Notes under the pieces: generated by a model
The model's database searches: none
What the model was told of the DNA's origin: nothing
The model's input: the letters and a program-made list of their open reading frames with translations, nothing else
Assembly: GCF_900100335.1 (NCBI RefSeq)
Contig: NZ_FNFE01000001.1
Location: 496,001 to 560,000 of the forward strand
Reading direction: 5' to 3'
DNA: 64,000 nucleotides
Origin: Natronorubrum texcoconense
GTDB taxonomy: Archaea > Halobacteriota > Halobacteria > Halobacteriales > Natrialbaceae
Position numbers and translations under genes: made by a program
Shown: piece by piece, positions 3,069 through 12,727 of the stretch
Numbering within the stretch: the stretch's first letter is position 1
How the letters are laid out: the number at the start of each line of letters is the position of its first letter

Positions 3069-5966
3069 CTACTCGGTAAAGGTGATCCAGCCGTCGGGAG
3101 CGTGGGCCTTCACATCGTTCATCGCCTCGCGGGCGTCGGTGCGGCTCTCGTAGGTCTGGGTGCTCTCGGCCATCGTCGAGCCGTACTCGTCGACCAGCCG
3201 CCAGACCCAGCCCTCGCCGTCTTCGTCGGTGTGCAGTTCGAAGGAGACGCTGTCGATCTCGAGGATGCTCGCCTCTTCGATCAGTTCGCGGACGTTCTCG
3301 AGGGCCGCGCGTGCGGCCTCGGTCGAGTCGTGGCTCTCGGAGCCGGTCGCGATCGTCCGCCCGTCCTCGTCGATAAGCCGCCACTGCCAGCGCTCGTCCT
3401 CGTCGGCGACGAGTTCGAAGGAGGCGACGTCGAAGTCGACGCGACCCGCCATTGGCGCGAGCTGGCGAACGTCCTCGATGGCGCCCATGGCGGCGGCCTT
3501 GGTGGAGACGGCACCGACCGCACTCGCACTGACCTCGCGCTCGCGGTCGATGAGCTCCCACGTCCATCCGTCGCTGCCGTCCAGCCGAATCGCGACGTCC
3601 TCGATCGCGAATATCGGCGCGTCGACGGCGTGTGCCTTCAGGCTCTCGGCGCCGGCCATCGCCTCGTCACGGGTATCGTAGCTGACGGTCGAATCGGCGA
3701 CCTCTTCGCGGTCGCGGTCGAGCAGTCGCCAGTGCCAGCCGCCGCTGTCGTACAGCTGGACCGCAACGTCGCCGATCGTGTGCTGGTGAGCCGCCGCGGC
3801 CGAGCGGCGGATGTCGTCCAGTTCGTCGACGAGTTCGTCCCGGGTCGGGTGAGCCTCGCCGGCTTCCGCGACGGTCTCGCCCGAGGGCAGCACGAACCGC
3901 CACTGCCAGTCCTCGGCCGCGTATGTCTGGAAGATCGCCGTATCCATCGTCCGAATGTCGGAGTCTAAGTGCTCGAGCAGTCGGTTCATCGCCTGCCGTG
4001 CGGCACCGCGAGTCGGGTGCGTGGCTGGGTCCTCCGCGACGAGCTTCCCGGCCTCGTCGATGAGCCGCCAGCCCCACTCGTCGTCCTCGTTGACGAACAG
4101 CTCGAACGCTGCGGTCTCGATTTCCAGTAACTCGGCGTCGGGAGCCTGCTCTTTCAGCGTCATCATCGCCTCGGCGGCCTCGCCCCGCGAGGTGTGTTCC
4201 TGGCCGCTGTCTGCGAGCACGTTGCCGTCCTCGTCGATGAGCCGCCAGCGCCACTCGCCGGAGTCAGCCTCGTAGACCTGGAACGCCGCGTGTTCGAACT
4301 CGATGAGGTCGGCCTCGCTGGCCTGTTCCCGAACCCGCTGGATCGCCTCCGACGCCGTCTCGGCGTCCGAGTGGGGTTCGTTGCTCGCGGCGACGATCTC
4401 GCGGTCGTCGGTGACGAGCCGCCAGTTCCAGTCGGGGCCGGTCTGGTCGTCGTACTCGAGCGTCGTACCGCCGTCGGTCTGGGCGACTGCGTCGTCCACC
4501 GTTGCCGGGAGGTCGTCGTCCGGACCGGCCGAAGGCGACGCGCTGGCCGTCGGGTATACCTCGTACTCCGCCTCGTCGATCTCGACGACGTCGGCCTCGG
4601 GGGCTCCGTCGCTGAACTGATCGGCGCTCGATTCGACGTCGGCCTGTTCGGTGACGTCGGTCGGACTGCGGGCGACGATGTGCTCGGTCTCGTCGACGAG
4701 CCGCCAGCGCCAGTCACTGCCCGACTCGTACAGTTCGTAGGTCGGTTCGCCGGCCACGGTGACCGACGCGGACTCGAGTGCGGGGAGCAGTGCTTCGGCA
4801 GCCGCTTCGGCGTCGCGACGGGAGTCGAACGTGTCCGAGGCGCTCGCGACGACGTCGTCGGCGTCGTCGACGAAGCGCCAGGTCCAGCCGCCCGGTCGCT
4901 CGACGAGTTCGACGCCGACGTGCTCGATGTCGAGCAGGCGTGCGCGGTCGAACCGTTCGGCGAACGTCTGTGCGGCCTCCTCGGCCCGTTCCTGAGTTCG
5001 GAAGCCGGAGTCGCTCGAGGCTAACGGATTCCGCTCGTCGTCGACGAGTTGCCAGAACCACTGGTCGCGTTTCTCCTCGTAGGTGAACGCCGCGCCCTCG
5101 ATCTCGATGACGTCGGCGTCGGGGCCGCGGTCCTTGAGGAAGCTCACGGAGTTCTCGGCGCCGTCGCGCTGGTCGAACTCGCCGGTGCTCGAGCCGACGA
5201 CGCTGCCGTCGTCGCGCGCGAGCGTCCACTGCCAGGTGCCGTCCCGGTCCTCGTAGAGCCGGAACGCGGAGGTTGTCAACTCCATCAGGCCCGCGGAACT
5301 GATCTGGGACTGGACCCGCTCGATGCCATCGGTTGCGTCGGGTCGCGTGACGGCGCTCTCGTTGCTCGTCGCGAGCGCCTCGAGGTGGAGGACGTTCCAC
5401 TGCCAGTCGCCGTTCTCGTCGCGGAAGACGGCGAACTGCGCGCCCTCCATCGCGTCGCCGGTCAGAATGTCCGGATCGTCGGTCGCCCCCTCCTCCTCGA
5501 CGAACATCCCTTTCTGTCCTGTGAGGATGGGGACGAGGGCCGTGACGCCGGCGATCAGGCCGATTCCGAGGGTGTAGACGGAGATGACTTGGACGCTGTA
5601 GTCGGTCCCGAGCTCTCGCCAGTTGTAGGGGTAGGCCCACCCGAAGAAGACGACGCCGCCGAGTGCGATGAGGAGTCCGAGCACGCTCGCGTAGATCCCG
5701 ATCCGTCGGACCGGAAGCATGAGCACGATCCCGAACAGACAGAGCGCAAGCCCCGCCGCCGCCGTGACGCCGGAGATCCGAATGAGCGTGTAGGAATCCG
5801 CGCTCCCGGCGTAGCCGACGACGAACGTGAATATTCCTGCCGCGCCGAGGAGATAGCCGGCGATGAATATCCAGTAGCCGTAGACGTCCTTGCTCGAGTC
5901 GGGCTCACCGACGTAGTGTTCGTACAGTCGAAACAGCTTTTGATGAATTTCAGTCGTTGAGGACAT
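3069..5966 (-). CDS. Membrane protein with 13 tandem DUF1508 (YegP-like) repeats
   Basis: A 965-residue protein. Four hydrophobic helices lie within about residues 28-145 (for example IFIAGYLLGAAGIFTFVVGY and GVTAAAGLALCLFGIVL). After that comes a soluble region of 13 repeats of about 55-60 residues, each centred on a WxW core (DWQWNVL, TWQWTLA, QWFWQLV, GWTWRFV, DWRWRLV, DWNWRLV, EWRWRLI, EWGWRLI, DWQWRFV, GWHWRLL, GWTWELI, RWQWRLI, GWVWRLV) and followed by a D-G-x-x-(V/I)-A segment and a helical spacer. This is the DUF1508 fold, normally found as one to a few copies in small soluble proteins. Repeats six and nine are the most diverged, with a disordered insertion before repeat six. Function is unknown; a membrane-anchored scaffold or surface protein is possible. 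A TATA-like TTTATTAT lies upstream at about 5997-6004. Confidence 0.8.
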   Translation of the reverse strand: MSSTTEIHQKLFRLYEHYVGEPDSSKDVYGYWIFIAGYLLGAAGIFTFVVGYAGSADSYTLIRISGVTAAAGLALCLFGIVLMLPVRRIGIYASVLGLLIALGGVVFFGWAYPYNWRELGTDYSVQVISVYTLGIGLIAGVTALVPILTGQKGMFVEEEGATDDPDILTGDAMEGAQFAVFRDENGDWQWNVLHLEALATSNESAVTRPDATDGIERVQSQISSAGLMELTTSAFRLYEDRDGTWQWTLARDDGSVVGSSTGEFDQRDGAENSVSFLKDRGPDADVIEIEGAAFTYEEKRDQWFWQLVDDERNPLASSDSGFRTQERAEEAAQTFAERFDRARLLDIEHVGVELVERPGGWTWRFVDDADDVVASASDTFDSRRDAEAAAEALLPALESASVTVAGEPTYELYESGSDWRWRLVDETEHIVARSPTDVTEQADVESSADQFSDGAPEADVVEIDEAEYEVYPTASASPSAGPDDDLPATVDDAVAQTDGGTTLEYDDQTGPDWNWRLVTDDREIVAASNEPHSDAETASEAIQRVREQASEADLIEFEHAAFQVYEADSGEWRWRLIDEDGNVLADSGQEHTSRGEAAEAMMTLKEQAPDAELLEIETAAFELFVNEDDEWGWRLIDEAGKLVAEDPATHPTRGAARQAMNRLLEHLDSDIRTMDTAIFQTYAAEDWQWRFVLPSGETVAEAGEAHPTRDELVDELDDIRRSAAAAHQHTIGDVAVQLYDSGGWHWRLLDRDREEVADSTVSYDTRDEAMAGAESLKAHAVDAPIFAIEDVAIRLDGSDGWTWELIDREREVSASAVGAVSTKAAAMGAIEDVRQLAPMAGRVDFDVASFELVADEDERWQWRLIDEDGRTIATGSESHDSTEAARAALENVRELIEEASILEIDSVSFELHTDEDGEGWVWRLVDEYGSTMAESTQTYESRTDAREAMNDVKAHAPDGWITFTE

Positions 5967-6194
5967 TCGTAAACTTGACCGGATAACTGAAACCCATCAT
6001 AATAAAGCTCCGGCCACAATATCGAGTTCTGATATGTTCGTCTCGGGCTCTAAGAGAGCGGAACCGCTCCGGAGATTCGATATGTGGGGCCTGTTGAACG
6101 TATACAGACCTCTCGGAACGTGGGGTCAACCTGCTCGATCGAAGTGTACAGAATCGATCGCCGAGCGAGGCAAACTGCCTCGACACGCACCCCG

Positions 6195-7028
6195 TTATTT
6201 CAGCATCGCACCCGCCGGGTGCGTCGCACAGACGGCCGGCTCGTAGCCGGCATCAGAGAGCCCCGTGCCGAGCGCGAAGACGGTCTCGCCGAGCATGGCC
6301 ATCGAGGCCTGCCCGTCGACTTCCGTCACGTCGCCGATCGTCCGCGCGACCTGCTCGGTCAACAGCTCCGCTTCGCGAGCGAACAGCCGAGAGGCGTACA
6401 TAAACGAGAGCAGGGTCGGTTCCTCGACGACCCGCGAGAGCGCCTGTTTTCCGGCGGCAGAGAGCCGCTCGGTCTCGCCCGAAAGCACGTCCGCCGTCGA
6501 GAGTTCGCCGAACGAAACGTACTCTACGCGCGCTCGAGACGGAATCGCGTCGAGCGTGTTCACCTGCGGTGCACCCGGTTCCAGGCGGATCGGGACGCCT
6601 CCGTGGGCTTGCGCAACCACGTCTCCCAGTCCGGTTCCCGCCTGTACCTCGGCCCCGTGTGCGATGGTCACGAGTTCGTTCCACGAGAGCTTGCGTTCGA
6701 ATACCTGGTTCGCCGCGAGGGCGGTTCCGAGCGCCATCGCGCCCGAGACCCCGAAGCCGGAGCCGATCGGGAGTTCCGATTCGGCCTCGACGCGGGCGCT
6801 CACTTCGAGCGTCTCGAGAACCGTCTCTACGGGATCCACGTCGCACTCCTCGCCGTCGAGGACGACCGTCGACGTGTCGTCAGTGGCCGGTTCGACCGTC
6901 ACCTCGACGCCGTCGGTAAGCGTCACTCCCGCGCCGCGGGAGCCCGCTTTCGTCGGATCGTCGTCTGGATGAGCGCTGAAAAAGCCCGTAATGTGCCCCG
7001 GTACGAACGCCGTCGACTCCTCGCGCAT
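6195..7028 (-). CDS. Pantoate kinase (GHMP superfamily)
   Basis: A 277-residue GHMP-type kinase. It begins MREESTAFVPGHITGFFSAH, the N-terminus characteristic of archaeal pantoate kinase, and has the glycine/serine-rich ATP loop LPIGSGFGVSGAMALG. In archaea this enzyme phosphorylates pantoate before condensation with beta-alanine by phosphopantothenate synthetase, replacing bacterial PanC/PanK in coenzyme A synthesis. The ATG at 7028 was chosen over an upstream start in frame because the conserved N-terminus begins there and a TTATAT box lies about 25-30 bases before it. It stands alone, with a 372-base divergent gap to the exported hydrolase gene. Confidence 0.88.
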   Translation of the reverse strand: MREESTAFVPGHITGFFSAHPDDDPTKAGSRGAGVTLTDGVEVTVEPATDDTSTVVLDGEECDVDPVETVLETLEVSARVEAESELPIGSGFGVSGAMALGTALAANQVFERKLSWNELVTIAHGAEVQAGTGLGDVVAQAHGGVPIRLEPGAPQVNTLDAIPSRARVEYVSFGELSTADVLSGETERLSAAGKQALSRVVEEPTLLSFMYASRLFAREAELLTEQVARTIGDVTEVDGQASMAMLGETVFALGTGLSDAGYEPAVCATHPAGAMLK

Positions 7029-7400
7029 TGGGCGGTATTTCGGCTCGGACGATATAACAGTGAAGATTCGGTACGGATCGACTCGAGCACATCGTCGCGA
7101 ACGCACCGAAACCGCTCGGCGGAGACAGCGGCCGTCGTCTGCACACGACGTCGGTGAACCCCAACGTACGTGATCTGTGAGTCACAACCGCATGGATCAC
7201 GACCTCAAGGAACGTGGGTGATTCCAGAAAAAACTAAAGACGGACAGTTGAGAACCATCTGTAGGCCCGGAGCCGACTGCTTTCAAACCCGTACAGTGTA
7301 TTCTCTAATTAGCTAACGTCTGAAAACGGTGGGCGTATAAAGGAGTTCACATCAGAGCGAATAAAATGAAATCCGATAGCCGATACTGTTTGAATGGATC
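7029..7400. promoter_or_regulatory. Divergent intergenic region: pantoate kinase / exported hydrolase
   Basis: No gene is visible in these 372 bases. On the minus strand a TTATAT box at about 7050-7060 serves pantoate kinase. On the plus strand TATAAAG at 7335-7341 lies about 25 bases before an AATAAAATGAAA stretch, the likely transcription start, and about 60 bases before the hydrolase ATG at 7401. The hydrolase mRNA therefore probably has a leader with an out-of-frame AUG at 7366. Confidence 0.5.
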
Positions 7401-8267
7401 ATGGCAGATAACAACAAGCAACGGAACCTGCCGGGGGAATCGACGCGCACGAACCGACGAGCCGTACTCAAAGCCACGGGAGCGACGGTCGTCGGAGCGA
7501 CGGGGCTGGCCGCGGTGTCCGGATCGGCATCGGCTTACAGTCACGAAATCGAAACTATCGAAATAGACGAGGGCGGCTGGTTCAGCGGGTGGAGCGCGGA
7601 CGGCAGCCTTCCGGTCGCGGACGAAGTGTTCGTCTTCATCCACGGCTGGTTCGGCGACTCGACCGTCTCGAGTCAGGCTGACGATGTTCTGGGGTCGCTA
7701 GAGGACGGCGGGTACGACCCCGATGAAGCCGTCGCCCTCGAGTGGCCCGCATCGACGATCAATTTCTTCGGCGCCGAGAGCGACACCGAAGACGTCGGTG
7801 AGGTCGCCGCCGAACTCGCCGAGGAGTTCTACGACGACGGCGGCGGCAACATCCGCCTCGTCGGTCACTCCCTCGGGGGCCGCTGTGTCCTCTGGGCCGC
7901 GACGAAACTGAGTTCGGGTTACGAGATCGACACCGTCGCGCCCCTCGGCGCGGCCGCCGACGGCTCGGAACTCTGTGAGGACCTCTGGATCGACGGCATC
8001 GACAACGCCGGCGAGGTCCGCAACTACCACTCCGAGAACGACTCGACGGTCGGCGCAGCCTACGGCGGCTGGGGCGACACTGCGCTCGGCAACGAGGGCG
8101 CCGGCTGTGACCCAGACGGCTACACGGACGTCGACGTGACCGACAGCGTTGGCAGCCACATGGGCTTCCTGGGTGACGAAGCGGTCGGTGCCGACCTCGC
8201 CGCTGCGATCGACGGCGACCCCGACGACAATGACGACGATGACGACGACGGCTGGGGCTGGTGGTAA
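7401..8267 (+). CDS. Tat-exported alpha/beta hydrolase (copy 1 of tandem pair)
   Basis: A 288-residue protein with a twin-arginine signal (R19-R20, RRAVLKATG) and a hydrophobic stretch to about residue 45, so it is exported folded. The mature part is an alpha/beta hydrolase: oxyanion strand FVFIHGWFGD (about 77-86), nucleophile elbow VGHSLGG with Ser157, a candidate acid in NYHSENDSTVG, and a candidate His in SVGSHMGFLGD. Lipase or esterase activity is plausible; the substrate is unknown. The protein ends in an aspartate run followed by GWGWW. The next gene is a close paralogue sharing all these blocks and the same tail, which points to tandem duplication. No lipobox cysteine is seen, so release to the medium or retention through the tail are both possible. 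Confidence 0.82.
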   Translation: MADNNKQRNLPGESTRTNRRAVLKATGATVVGATGLAAVSGSASAYSHEIETIEIDEGGWFSGWSADGSLPVADEVFVFIHGWFGDSTVSSQADDVLGSLEDGGYDPDEAVALEWPASTINFFGAESDTEDVGEVAAELAEEFYDDGGGNIRLVGHSLGGRCVLWAATKLSSGYEIDTVAPLGAAADGSELCEDLWIDGIDNAGEVRNYHSENDSTVGAAYGGWGDTALGNEGAGCDPDGYTDVDVTDSVGSHMGFLGDEAVGADLAAAIDGDPDDNDDDDDDGWGWW

Positions 8268-8494
8268 CGCGACGGCCAATCGCTGTTCCAGAATCGAGCT
8301 CTGTACGTCGACCGTTTTCTCGAGCCGATCACCATCGGGGGCACGCGTGTAATTTTGCACCCCTCGCACCCTCGGCACGTTACTGATATTGCTGTTTAGA
8401 GCGTATTTGGCGAACAACCATTCCCTGTATGGTCGATCATTCTACCACTGAAAATACTACCCACTACCTGAATTAACAACGATACCTGGTAGCA

Positions 8495-8502
8495 TATAAA
8501 TA
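8495..8502 (+). promoter_or_regulatory. TATA box of the second exported hydrolase
   Basis: TATAAATA lies about 25 bases before TAAAATGAAT, the likely transcription start. As in the first hydrolase gene, an out-of-frame ATG (8525) sits at this start and the real coding start follows 25-34 bases later. The rest of the 282-base gap (8268-8549) shows nothing I can name. Confidence 0.55.
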
Positions 8503-8549
8503 GATTCGTTACTGAGCAGGTAAAATGAATATTCTTCCTGGGAAACGAT

Positions 8550-9437
8550 ATGCTGTCGATGACAGACAACGACTCACCACGCGAAGCGGACGAATCGACG
8601 ACGCCGAGCCGACGAACGATGCTGAAAGGAACCGGAGCGGCCATCGTAGGCACAGCGGGTCTGGCCGCGTCGTCCAGTTCGGCTACCGCCGTCTCGAGTT
8701 GGGATATCGAGGTTCTCGAGGTTGGTGACAGCGTCTTCGGAATCGGCTCGACGCCATCGATCCCCGTCGGCGATGAAGTGTTCGTCTACGTCCACGGCTG
8801 GTTCGGCGACTCGACCGTCTCGAGTCAGGCCGCAGACGTCGCAACCTCGATGGAGGACGTCGGCTACGAGGCCGACGAGTACGTCGGCATCGAGTGGGAC
8901 GCGACGACGATCAACTTCCCGTCCGCCGAAAGCGAGACCGAAGACGTCGGCGAGGAACTCGCCGAGATGGTCGAGGAGTTCTACGACGACGGCGGCGGCA
9001 ACCTTCGACTCATCGGTCACTCGCTGGGCGGCCGCATCGTCCTCGAGACTGTCAATCACATGGACGACGACTACGAAATCGAAACCGTCGCGCCGCTCGG
9101 AGCCGCCGCAGACGGCGACATGGTCTGCGAGGGGAGCGACGGACTGTTCAGCGACAACTGGTACGACGGTATCGCGGCGAACGCGGACGAGGTTCGCAAC
9201 TACCACTCCGAGAACGATTCGACGGTCGGTGCGGCCTACGGTGGCTTCTTCGGTGCCGCACTGGGTAACGACGGCGCGGGCTGTCCGGGCGACACGGCGG
9301 ACAACTACACGGACGTCGACGTGACCGACAGCGTCTCGAGTCACCTGGGCTTCCTGGGCGACGAGGCAGTGGGTGCCAACCTCGCCGAAGCGGCCGGCGT
9401 CGACGTTGACGATGACGACGGCTGGGGCTGGTGGTAA
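8550..9437 (+). CDS. Tat-exported alpha/beta hydrolase (copy 2 of tandem pair)
   Basis: A 295-residue paralogue of the upstream gene. The Tat signal has RR at 21-22 (SRRTMLKGTG). VYVHGWFGD is the oxyanion strand, IGHSLGG the nucleophile elbow (Ser about 157), NYHSENDSTVG the acid block and SVSSHLGFLGD the histidine block. The C-terminus is an aspartate run followed by GWGWW, almost identical to copy 1 even at the DNA level. Compared with copy 1 there is a short insertion before the acid block (EGSDGLFSDNWYDG). Two starts are possible, ATG 8550 and ATG 8559; the second begins MTDNDSPREA. Substrate unknown; two copies with separate promoters suggest distinct expression or substrate range. Confidence 0.82.
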   Translation: MLSMTDNDSPREADESTTPSRRTMLKGTGAAIVGTAGLAASSSSATAVSSWDIEVLEVGDSVFGIGSTPSIPVGDEVFVYVHGWFGDSTVSSQAADVATSMEDVGYEADEYVGIEWDATTINFPSAESETEDVGEELAEMVEEFYDDGGGNLRLIGHSLGGRIVLETVNHMDDDYEIETVAPLGAAADGDMVCEGSDGLFSDNWYDGIAANADEVRNYHSENDSTVGAAYGGFFGAALGNDGAGCPGDTADNYTDVDVTDSVSSHLGFLGDEAVGANLAEAAGVDVDDDDGWGWW

Positions 9438-9856: not shown

Positions 9857-11161
9857 CTACGGGCTCAATCTCTGGCGATCACGCGGGAAGAGAACAGCCT
9901 CTCGAATGTTGTCCAGTCCGAGAATCGTCATCACGAGTCGCTCGCCGCCGAGGCCGAAGCCGGCGTGCGGTGGCATCCCGTACTTGAACATCTTCGTGTA
10001 GTACTCGAACTGGTCGGGGTCGAGGCCCTGCTGTTCGAAGCCCTCGATGAGTTTTTCGTAGCGGTGTTCGCGCTGCCCGCCGGAGACGAGTTCCATGCGC
10101 GGGTGCATCAGGTCGAAGCCGGTCGAAAGCTGCTCGTCGTCGTCGTGATCCTTGATGTAGAACGGCTTGATCTCGCTCGGCCAGTCGGTGATGAAGTAGT
10201 GGCCGCCGACGTCGTCGCCGAGCGCCTTCTCGCCCTCGGTCGGCAGGTCGTCGCCCCAGACGAGCTGCTCGTCGAGTTCGCCCGTCGCGTTGATTCGCTC
10301 GATGGCCTCCTCGTAGCTGAGCCGCGGGAACGCCTCGTCGGGAACCTCGAACTCGTCCTCGAGGCCGAGCGCCTCGAGTTCGTCGCTACAGTTCTCCTGA
10401 ATGGCCTCGTAGGCGGCCGTGACGACGCCTTCGACGACGTCCATCGCGTCGTTCTGGTCGCAGAACGCACCCTCGAAGTCGATCGAGGTTGCCTCGTTGA
10501 GGTGTCGCGGCGTGTTGTGCTCTTCGGCGCGGAAGATCGGCCCGATCTCGAAGACCCGCTCGACGTTCGAACCCGCGATCAGCTGCTTGAACAGCTGTGG
10601 CGACTGGTTCATGAACGCTTCCTCGCCGAAGTAGGTGATCGGGAAGAGCTCAGTGCCGCCTTCGGTCCCCGTGGCGACGATCTTCGGCGTGTTGATCTCC
10701 GTACAGTCGAACGCGCGGAACTGCTCGCGGACGGCGCGCAGGATTTCGGCGCGGATCTCGAAAACGGCCTGGACCTCCTCCTTGCGGAGGTCGAGGGTGC
10801 GGTTGTCCAGACGCGTCGAGAGTTCGGCGTCGACCTTTCCGGACGGGTCGAGCGGCAGTTCGGGGTCGGCCGGTGCAACGACCTCGACCTCCTCGGGCGT
10901 GATCTCGACGCCCGTCGGCGCGCGCGGCTCCTCTTCGACCGCGCCGGTGACTTTGACGACGCTCTCTCGAGAGACGCCCAGCCCCGTCTCGACGAGCTCT
11001 TCGTCCATGTCGTCTTTCTCGAACTTGACCTGGATCTTGCCGGAGTTGTCTCGGAGAATCAGGAAGGCAATTCCGCCAAGGTCTCGGATCTCGTGAACCC
11101 AGCCGGCGACGGTCGCGTCGTCGCCCGGCTCGGCGTCGGCAGTGTAAATTCTGTCCTGCAT
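9857..11161 (-). CDS. aspS: Aspartate--tRNA ligase, archaeal type
   Basis: A 434-residue class II aminoacyl-tRNA synthetase. The N-terminal OB-fold anticodon-binding domain (about 1-100) starts [22 protein letters not shown]. The catalytic core has motif 2 [15 protein letters not shown] and motif 3 [14 protein letters not shown] near the C-terminus. The length fits archaeal AspRS, which lacks the bacterial GAD insertion. Whether it is discriminating or also makes Asp-tRNA(Asn) cannot be settled here. ATG 11161 is preferred to GTG 11167 because a CTTAAG box lies about 25 bases upstream, giving a leaderless mRNA. The 3' end lies in a repeated cassette, and the C-terminal sequence PRDRQRLSP is intact. 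Confidence 0.95.
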
Positions 11162-11227
11162 ACCCACCGATTCCGGTCGCCGGAACTTAAGCGCAATCGT
11201 TCGAGTCCGACTGAACGCTAGCGGAAT

Positions 11228-11599
11228 TCAGTAGGGTGTTACCGAGGCACTCGTCCGCTGAAACTCGTCGACGTTCCTCGTGACGACGGCTTTATTCGCC
11301 TCGAGCGCTGTCGCTGCAATCATTACGTCGATGGCACCGATCTGTTCTCCCTGTTTGCGGAGCACTCGTTGTTCTTTCATTGCTCGCCGTGACTCGGTAA
11401 GCCCGTATGGAAGAACGTCCACTCGTTGAACGATCGTCTCGAACCGTTCTCGATCGGTGTTCGAGAGTCCGAACCCAACTTCCGAAACGGTAAGCGTAGA
11501 TACCGACGCCTCTTGCCAACTGAATTCGTCCAGTTTTGCGATCGCAGCGGCGTCTTCTGCAAAGAGATCTATGAGAAAACAGCTGTCCAACAGAACCAT
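11228..11599 (-). CDS. PIN-domain ribonuclease, VapC-type toxin
   Basis: A 123-residue PIN domain. The acidic residues of the family are visible: D5 in MVLLDSCFLIDLF, E41 in LTVSEVGFG, a central aspartate in GAIDVMIAATAL, and a C-terminal aspartate in TRNVDEFQR. PIN domains of this kind cut RNA with Mg2+; as VapC toxins they are silenced by a partner encoded upstream. Here the ATG follows directly after the stop codon of the upstream small gene (11600-11848), the usual vapBC layout, so both are probably co-transcribed. Confidence 0.85.
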   Translation of the reverse strand: MVLLDSCFLIDLFAEDAAAIAKLDEFSWQEASVSTLTVSEVGFGLSNTDRERFETIVQRVDVLPYGLTESRRAMKEQRVLRKQGEQIGAIDVMIAATALEANKAVVTRNVDEFQRTSASVTPY

Positions 11600-11869
11600 T
11601 TACTGGTCCTCGTCAGCTCGTTCGCCGCTACCGAACCGGTTATTCACATCTTCTCGGAACTCGTTCGAACGTGTCCGAACGTTCTCGAGTTCGTCTTCAT
11701 CGACGAGTCCGATTAGCTCTCGAAGCGGATTCGTATCGTCCTCAACGAGCAGACGGTCGATTGCATCACTGAAGCTTTCGCCGTCCCGCTTTTCTCTGTT
11801 GAGCCGCCGGTACGTTTCGTCCTTGAGGCTCACTGTCTTACTCCCCATCTGTGTATCTACATTTTTCAT
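11600..11869 (-). CDS. VapB-type antitoxin, small DNA-binding protein
   Basis: An 89-residue protein from ATG 11869, or 82 residues from ATG 11848 (MGSKTVSLKDETYRRL). The N-terminal part, VSLKDETYRRLNREKRDG followed by ESFSDAIDRLL, looks like a ribbon-helix-helix or AbrB-like haloarchaeal antitoxin family, followed by an acidic, helical C-terminus that would wrap the toxin. It directly precedes the PIN-domain gene with no spacer. An AT-rich ACATATGCATAG at about 11870-11884 on the minus strand could be the promoter of the pair. Autoregulation is usual for such modules but no operator is distinguished here. Confidence 0.72.
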   Translation of the reverse strand: MKNVDTQMGSKTVSLKDETYRRLNREKRDGESFSDAIDRLLVEDDTNPLRELIGLVDEDELENVRTRSNEFREDVNNRFGSGERADEDQ

Positions 11870-11941
11870 TCTATGCATATGTGTTTTTCGCAGATCATCA
11901 CCACCATAACGAGTTTTGAGCCTGCAGTCCGACCATCCGAT

Positions 11942-12727
11942 ATGGACGACCTCGAGCGACTCGCCGACGATATCCGCGATGCAGAGACCGTCGTCGCCTT
12001 CACCGGTGCGGGGATCTCCGAACCGTCCGGCGTCCCGACGTTTCGCGGCGACGACGGCGTCTGGGACAAGTTCGACGAGGGCCAGTTCACCTACGGCCGG
12101 TTCCGGCGCGATCCGGAGGGGTTCTGGAACGATCGCGTCGAACTTCAACGGGTGATGTTCGACGGGGAGTACGAGCCCAACGCGGCCCACGAGGCGCTGG
12201 CCGCGATGGGACGGGACGGCTATCTCGAGGCGATCCTTACCCAGAACACGGACGGATTACACGGTGAGGCTGCGGAATCGGTGGGCGATGAGTCCGCCGC
12301 CGAGGAGGCGGACGAAACGACCATCCTCGAACTCCACGGCAACTCCCAGCGAGTACGCTGCATCGACTGTGGAAAACGCGTGGACGGCGATCCGATCTTC
12401 GAGCGCGCAGCCGACGGGGAACGCCCGCCGACCTGCGACTGCGGCGGCGTCTACAAACCCGACGTCGTCCTCTTCGGCGAGCAACTGCCCGGCGCGGTCA
12501 TTCAGCGCGCCCGATCGCTCGCCCGCGAGAGCGACGTCTTCCTCGCCATCGGCTCTTCGCTGGTGGTAGAACCCGCCGCGTCGCTGCCCCGACTCGCCGC
12601 GTCGTCGGGCGCAACCGTCGGGATCGTCAACCTCGAGTCGACGCCGGTCGACGGTTCGGCGGACGTGATCGTCCGCGAGGACGTAACGGACGTGCTGCCG
12701 GCGATTCGGGACCTCGTCGAGAAGTAA
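11942..12727 (+). CDS. cobB: NAD-dependent protein deacylase, Sir2 family
   Basis: A 261-residue sirtuin. NAD-binding FTGAGISEPSGVPTFRG is at about 20-36, the QNTDGLH block with the catalytic His context follows, then ELHGN. Zinc ligands are C-x2-C (CIDCGK) and a closing C-x-C (CDCGG). The C-terminal Rossmann segment is AIGSSLVVEPAASLP. It removes acyl groups from lysine using NAD+; haloarchaeal targets are unknown. ATG 11942 was chosen because the family N-terminus MDDLERLADD begins there; an upstream frame extension carries no conserved sequence and runs over the vapB promoter. It diverges from the vapBC-like pair. Confidence 0.9.
   Translation: MDDLERLADDIRDAETVVAFTGAGISEPSGVPTFRGDDGVWDKFDEGQFTYGRFRRDPEGFWNDRVELQRVMFDGEYEPNAAHEALAAMGRDGYLEAILTQNTDGLHGEAAESVGDESAAEEADETTILELHGNSQRVRCIDCGKRVDGDPIFERAADGERPPTCDCGGVYKPDVVLFGEQLPGAVIQRARSLARESDVFLAIGSSLVVEPAASLPRLAASSGATVGIVNLESTPVDGSADVIVREDVTDVLPAIRDLVEK

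Follow-up and report, generated by a model that had tools for sequence, protein, structure and literature searches.

A short acidic, aromatic-tipped C-terminus as a candidate docking tag on predicted Tat-exported, lipase-like hydrolases of Natrialbaceae

The closest described enzymes to the proteins studied here are B. subtilis lipase A (EstA/LipA) and other minimal α/β-hydrolase lipases, serine hydrolases that carry a nucleophile elbow. Among haloarchaeal Tat substrates, approximately half or more possess a lipobox anchor (PMC2945643). The PGF-CTERM substrates of archaeosortase A are exported haloarchaeal proteins that likewise display a C-terminal appendage, with a tripartite signal consisting of a PGF motif, then a hydrophobic helix and then basic C-terminal residues (PMC7157517). 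The locus described below lies in a window of 64,000 nucleotides from Natronorubrum texcoconense. The two open reading frames reported by the first-pass annotation at 7401-9437 are present there in tandem on the + strand, and their products, termed copy 1 and copy 2, share 66% protein identity in pairwise comparison. The start codon of copy 2 is more likely the in-frame ATG at 8559, in register with the starts of other family members, than the one at 8550. Coordinates of all features are presented in Table 1.

Table 1. Features of the tandem hydrolase locus and its borders (window positions)
Feature	Position	Strand	Basis
Left border: GHMP-kinase family gene (pantoate-kinase-like)	6195..7106	-	Pfam GHMP_kinases_N; same gene cluster in 20/30 loci compared
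TATA-like box, copy 1 (gtataaag), 66 nt upstream of ATG	7335..7342	+	Read in sequence, alignment with 21 other members; putative promoter
Copy 1, lipase-like α/β hydrolase, predicted Tat-exported, 288 aa	7401..8267	+	ORF; AlphaFold2 model, mean pLDDT 82.8
Copy 1 predicted Tat signal peptide region (RRAVLK ... ASA), no lipobox Cys	7401..7535	+	Sequence; putative cleavage point
Copy 1 putative nucleophile Ser157 (GHSLGG)	7869..7871	+	Invariant in alignment; after strand β5 in model
Copy 1 putative triad Asp214	8040-8042	+	Invariant; after β7 in model
Copy 1 putative triad His253	8157-8159	+	Invariant; after β8 in model
Copy 1 acidic linker DGDPDDNDDDDDD	8211..8249	+	Sequence; disorder predicted from residue 281 onwards
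Copy 1 aromatic tip GWGWW	8250..8264	+	Sequence
TATA-like box, copy 2 (atataaat), 65 nt upstream of ATG 8559	8494..8501	+	Sequence and same alignment; putative promoter
Copy 2, lipase-like α/β hydrolase, predicted Tat-exported, 295 aa (292 aa from 8559)	8550..9437	+	ORF; AlphaFold2 model, mean pLDDT 78.0
Copy 2 acidic linker GVDVDDDD	9396..9419	+	Sequence
Copy 2 aromatic tip GWGWW	9420..9434	+	Sequence; residues 289-295 pLDDT < 50
Right border: aspS, aspartyl-tRNA synthetase	9857..11167	-	Pfam tRNA-synt_2 and tRNA_anti-codon; same gene cluster in 21/30 loci compared

Both AlphaFold2 models display an α/β-hydrolase fold, with Foldseek matches of probability 1.00 for copy 2. The nearest solved fold to the copy 2 model is that of B. 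subtilis lipase A (PDB code 1i6w; E of 1.8e-6 and TM by target of 0.65), and a profile search against PDB sequences returned 5ct8, 3d2c and 1i6w as top matches (E of 1e-5 to 6e-5). Identity to lipase A is ~16%, and the two copies differ from that enzyme in being larger and in carrying both a twin-arginine signal and an acidic, aromatic-tipped tail; their hydrolase activity is predicted. Pfam LCAT scored above cut-off in copy 2 only (27.3 versus 21 bits), copy 1 exceeded no Pfam cut-off, and no NCBIfam family was above cut-off for either copy. The matches to LCAT, Abhydrolase_6, Lipase, DUF726 and DUF676 were weak and partial, covering the oxyanion and nucleophile region, and none spans the protein. 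The catalytic blocks, which the first-pass annotation had described as complete, are intact in both copies and comprise the HGWFGD oxyanion block, the GHSLGG nucleophile and an invariant downstream Asp and His. Ser157, Asp214 and His253, numbered as in copy 1, do not vary among the 37 members aligned and, as judged from the alignment and the model, would form the catalytic triad, in the canonical order after strands 5, 7 and 8. Both copies may catalyse ester or lipid hydrolysis.

Copies 1 and 2 present the twin-arginine motifs RRAVLK and RRTMLK, respectively, and the two Arg residues are invariant across the hydrolase clade. Matches to Tat profiles were mostly sub-threshold (TAT_signal, 17.5 bits against a cut-off of 22.7; TIGR01409, 13.2 against 16.7), so the prediction of Tat export rests on the twin-arginine motif, and both copies are probably exported. 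Anchoring through a lipobox was rejected, since the signal region of either copy lacks a Cys at the cleavage site (ASA-YSH and ATA-VSS). A PGF motif, a hydrophobic helix or transmembrane stretch, and Lys or Arg are absent from all 37 tails examined. This contrasts with PGF-CTERM substrates, which display the PGF motif, the helix and the basic end (PMC7157517), and archaeosortase anchoring was rejected on these grounds.

An Asp-rich run followed by GWGWW closes both proteins, as had been noticed at first reading, with DPDDNDDDDDDGWGWW at the end of copy 1 and VDVDDDDGWGWW at the end of copy 2. The linker follows the final helix of the catalytic domain and is ~5-20 residues long, Asp/Gly-rich and free of Lys and Arg; the whole tail measures 10-25 residues. 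Disorder is predicted for the tail in both copies, the tips having pLDDT < 50 in both AlphaFold2 models. The homologue set covered the taxonomic family Natrialbaceae (125 genomes, of which 79 gave a match), as well as named genomes and 391 genomes at class level, and a comparable tail was identified on 39 non-redundant members of the clade around the two genes. An aromatic-free acidic linker followed by at least two aromatics among the last six residues is present in both copies and in 34 of the 37 distinct tails, versus 12/177 flanking proteins with two or more such aromatics. Across the 37 tails, aromatics make up 40% of the last six residues and Trp alone 31%, while the linkers are 44% acidic and hold no aromatic residue at any of 474 positions. 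Shuffling of residues within tails (2000 trials, last five residues counted) gave a mean of 4 of the 37 tails and a maximum of 13. As a protein feature, the tail exceeds chance by a wide margin. The Wimley-White interfacial sum over the last 6 residues is favourable, with a median of -3.3 kcal/mol.

The composition of the tip remains constant while its sequence drifts, with 22 different last-five sequences. Variants include GWGWW, GWGWF, GWGWL, WWGWL, GGWW, WWNW, WWSW, GWFDF, FGWW, LGWFS and GIF, together with WGWW, WGWF, WFDF and, in Halorientalis pallida, FFDFF; a few tips, such as GIF and GIFD, are weak. Trp and Phe interchange through different codons, so the trait retained is a property of the protein rather than a DNA element, and the drift in residue order makes a strict sequence signal unlikely. 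The proposal of a constant tail on otherwise diverging proteins therefore requires qualification: the tail recurs, but it is not strictly constant and its tip differs even between close orthologs. Selection for the tail, as originally suggested, is supported by the occurrence of the acidic linker and aromatic tip on orthologs and paralogs from many genera despite linker turnover. Orthologs without a tail were found in several Natrinema, Halocatena-like and other genomes, and the tail is thus dispensable in some lineages. Two further cases were observed, namely a hydrolase that has shrunk to a short remnant and retains the end DDDDDDDDDDGGWW (G046; L086:1610-1798, - strand), and a second, partial hydrolase copy ending in DWGWF that adjoins an intact one (G073; L030:912-1604, - strand).

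In most Natrialbaceae loci examined, the hydrolases are located between the GHMP-kinase gene and aspS, whose product we take to be specific for Asp, either singly or in arrays of 2 to ~8. In arrays L082 and L083 some members possess a C-terminal ricin-B lectin domain (PF14200, E of 1e-34 to 1e-38). The swap between tail and lectin is best seen in one well-resolved array, L082, where a tail-bearing gene at 6080-7018 and a ricin-bearing gene at 1013-2341 display ~93% DNA identity over the bulk of the catalytic domain, as far as LAAAINAG, are unrelated past that boundary, and form a sister pair in the tree (100/73). Relatives further removed have dockerin-like ends (L101-L104; PF00404, weak and below the Pfam cut-off) or a weak PPC-like end, and others terminate at the catalytic boundary with nothing appended. 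The ricin-B relatives, from the same locus, and the dockerin-like ones, from the same family, share the catalytic domain of copies 1 and 2, and their additional module starts at the same boundary; they differ in presenting a folded binding module where the two copies have a tail of 10-25 residues. The common boundary indicates that the tail occupies a slot for C-terminal binding modules, and this sharing of the slot suggests a common role. When the C-terminal state was mapped on the tree, a minimum of 13 changes was required, indicating that the slot was repeatedly lost or replaced; the tail is found on deep branches of the clade with several losses, and ricin in close sisters of tailed genes.

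Several other features of the locus were recorded. Each copy has its own TATA-like box 65-66 nt upstream, and the two copies therefore appear to be separately transcribed. Window positions 7335-7400 and 8494-8558 and 20 related regions share an upstream pattern consisting of the TATA-like box, then TTC..T..TGAG.AA..AAAAT, then the start. Many haloarchaeal transcripts are leaderless; the pattern observed here leaves a leader, and its A-rich element lies upstream of both copies and also in relatives. A 965-aa protein with an N-terminal DUF7139 and at least 6 tandem DUF1508 repeats (window 3069-5966, - strand) is found beside the hydrolases in 15 of the loci compared, and a PIN-domain toxin and VapB-type antitoxin pair adjoins aspS (window 11228-12190, - strand). 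In two genomes of genus g16 (L082:9902-12268, and L129:7027-9333, the latter from Natrinema), a chemotaxis transducer of the methyl-accepting type, equipped with a Cache-like sensor, is placed among or directly after the hydrolases, which suggests that a product of hydrolysis might be sensed.

The first-pass annotation had offered a surface-retention or secretion signal as one function of the tail, but a general signal of this type is unlikely, since in the genomes searched W-tipped tails were observed on no other exported protein. In the organism's own genome the pattern DDDGWGWW matched only the two hydrolase genes, and a genome-wide sorting tag was rejected because W-based tail patterns there are confined to these two. 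Pattern scans of the 125 Natrialbaceae genomes for W-tipped, D-rich ends returned this hydrolase family, the G046 remnant, an NMD3-like protein and chance matches at ORF ends, and no other exported family. The NMD3-like protein (G003; L087:917-2227, + strand), identified by eye, is cytoplasmic and ends in DDDEDDWW, probably a coincidence of composition. In the class-wide scan, among the matches listed, most are out of frame or lack two in-frame Trp; three in-frame exceptions lie outside Natrialbaceae, of which L172 and L173 terminate short frames of 15 and 70 codons, while L174 terminates a long frame with a membrane-protein-like C-terminus. Within the W-based patterns scanned, such a tail thus seems to belong to this family of hydrolases. 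The literature searched contained no account of tails of this sort, and the tail looks undescribed within it; both the fold of the protein and the concept of C-terminal modules are of kinds already known.

The architecture of the tail, its conserved composition, its sharing of a slot with other modules and the confinement of W-tipped ends to these hydrolases across the genomes searched are observed directly; from them we infer export, catalysis, a docking role and the candidate docking partners. The two copies would belong to an old Natrialbaceae family of Tat-exported, lipase A-like serine hydrolases that expands in tandem, in which a disordered, salt-tolerant acidic linker would present a cluster of aromatics, mostly Trp, at the extreme C-terminus. 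The tail would fill the C-terminal slot that is held by a ricin-B (β-trefoil) lectin in paralogs within the arrays and by dockerin-like or other domains in relatives further away, and its aromatic tip would act as a short docking element of low specificity. An enzyme otherwise unanchored, with neither lipobox nor PGF-CTERM, could in this way be held on an insoluble substrate or on the cell envelope, either by inserting Trp at a lipid interface or by stacking against glycans or a surface protein. The evidence suggests docking to substrate or surface as the best reading, helped by the ricin-B domain in the same slot of sister genes. For the specific proposal that the tail is a minimal docking tag for a membrane interface, a glycan or a surface protein on exported hydrolases, judged from sequence comparison, we consider the chances evenly balanced. 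Three rivals follow in this order: a signal for a specific receptor, a lid or stabiliser within the enzyme itself, and a remnant under no selection.

Bacterial SSB and phage T7 gp2.5 combine a flexible acidic stretch with a hydrophobic or aromatic C-terminal tip that is used in docking. The resemblance is an analogy only, as these are cytoplasmic DNA-binding proteins of unrelated fold with defined protein partners. By similar logic, or that of PGF-CTERM and archaeosortase, the hydrolase tip could be a specific signal for a dedicated sorting, secretion or processing partner, and its invariable position at the very end of the chain, after a flexible acidic linker, would suit recognition by a receptor. 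We regard this as unlikely, considering the looseness of the tip sequences, the restriction of the tested W-tipped forms to one exported family in the 125 Natrialbaceae genomes, and the lack of a conserved partner gene beside the locus in the loci compared, except for the housekeeping-type borders; the PGF motif, transmembrane stretch and basic end of archaeosortase substrates are also missing (PMC7157517).

A second alternative is that the tail acts on its own enzyme as a lid, stabiliser or autoinhibitor, with the Trp residues covering the active-site groove until contact with substrate or membrane. Lipase-like enzymes often need a lid, and the active site could be within range of a flexibly tethered, Trp-rich end. 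However, the low pLDDT of the tail in both models, the retention of the same catalytic domain by tail-less and ricin-bearing sisters, and the drift of tip sequences argue against such a function, which is distinctly unlikely.

On a third alternative, acidic linkers would be ordinary on haloarchaeal exported proteins and the tip would be an unselected remnant of a lost domain. Several lineages without a tip or ending inside the linker, and the variable length of the tail, are consistent with this neutral explanation. Yet aromatics are maintained at the tip, and excluded from the linkers, across deeply split orthologs despite linker turnover. Moreover, one base change turns the only Trp codon into either of two stop codons, such that unselected tips should decay. 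A neutral origin therefore seems very unlikely.

The tail sequences of the two copies had also been described as almost identical in DNA, with gene conversion of the 3' ends as a possible cause. Recent duplication or such conversion would make the tails alike with no function required, and the tips are identical as protein and have an exact run of 26 nt in common (GACGACGGCTGGGGCTGGTGGTAACG). To that run the claimed identity is confined: it ranks fourth, the three longer runs (40, 31 and 30 nt) all falling in the catalytic body, and synonymous identity among degenerate codons of shared residues is 5/7 in the tail, equal to the pair average of 123/180. Likeness of the tail DNA is expected from the single codon of Trp and strong GAC/GGC usage. 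In a maximum-likelihood tree of the catalytic domains, a Natronolimnohabitans gene clusters with copy 1 (100/98) and a gene from the organism's own genus with copy 2 (96/88), and these two groupings lie apart within the clade. The copies therefore belong to separate, well-supported lineages, with tailed orthologs in other genera, and the pair is old rather than a recent duplicate. Conversion of the 3' ends was thus rejected on synonymous identity, on the longer runs in the body and on tree placement, and recent duplication or conversion as the source of the likeness is hardly credible.

Docking of the tail to substrate or surface thus remains the preferred reading. A broader proposal, which we advance tentatively and consider doubtful, is that the tail represents a new archaeal C-terminal retention or docking tag, in which an acidic tether with an interchangeable aromatic tip would keep Tat-exported hydrolases non-covalently attached to envelope or substrate, would replace a lipid anchor or lectin, and would be swapped with lectin domains by recombination in tandem arrays. 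The locus offers natural matched controls for these ideas, as near-identical catalytic domains are present with the tail, with a lectin or with nothing. Apart from lipoboxes and PGF-CTERM, little is known of how haloarchaea retain unanchored exported enzymes near substrate or surface; if the proposal is true, a tail of 10-25 residues in the place of a lectin domain would localise such enzymes by simple means and could be used as a salt-tolerant tag.
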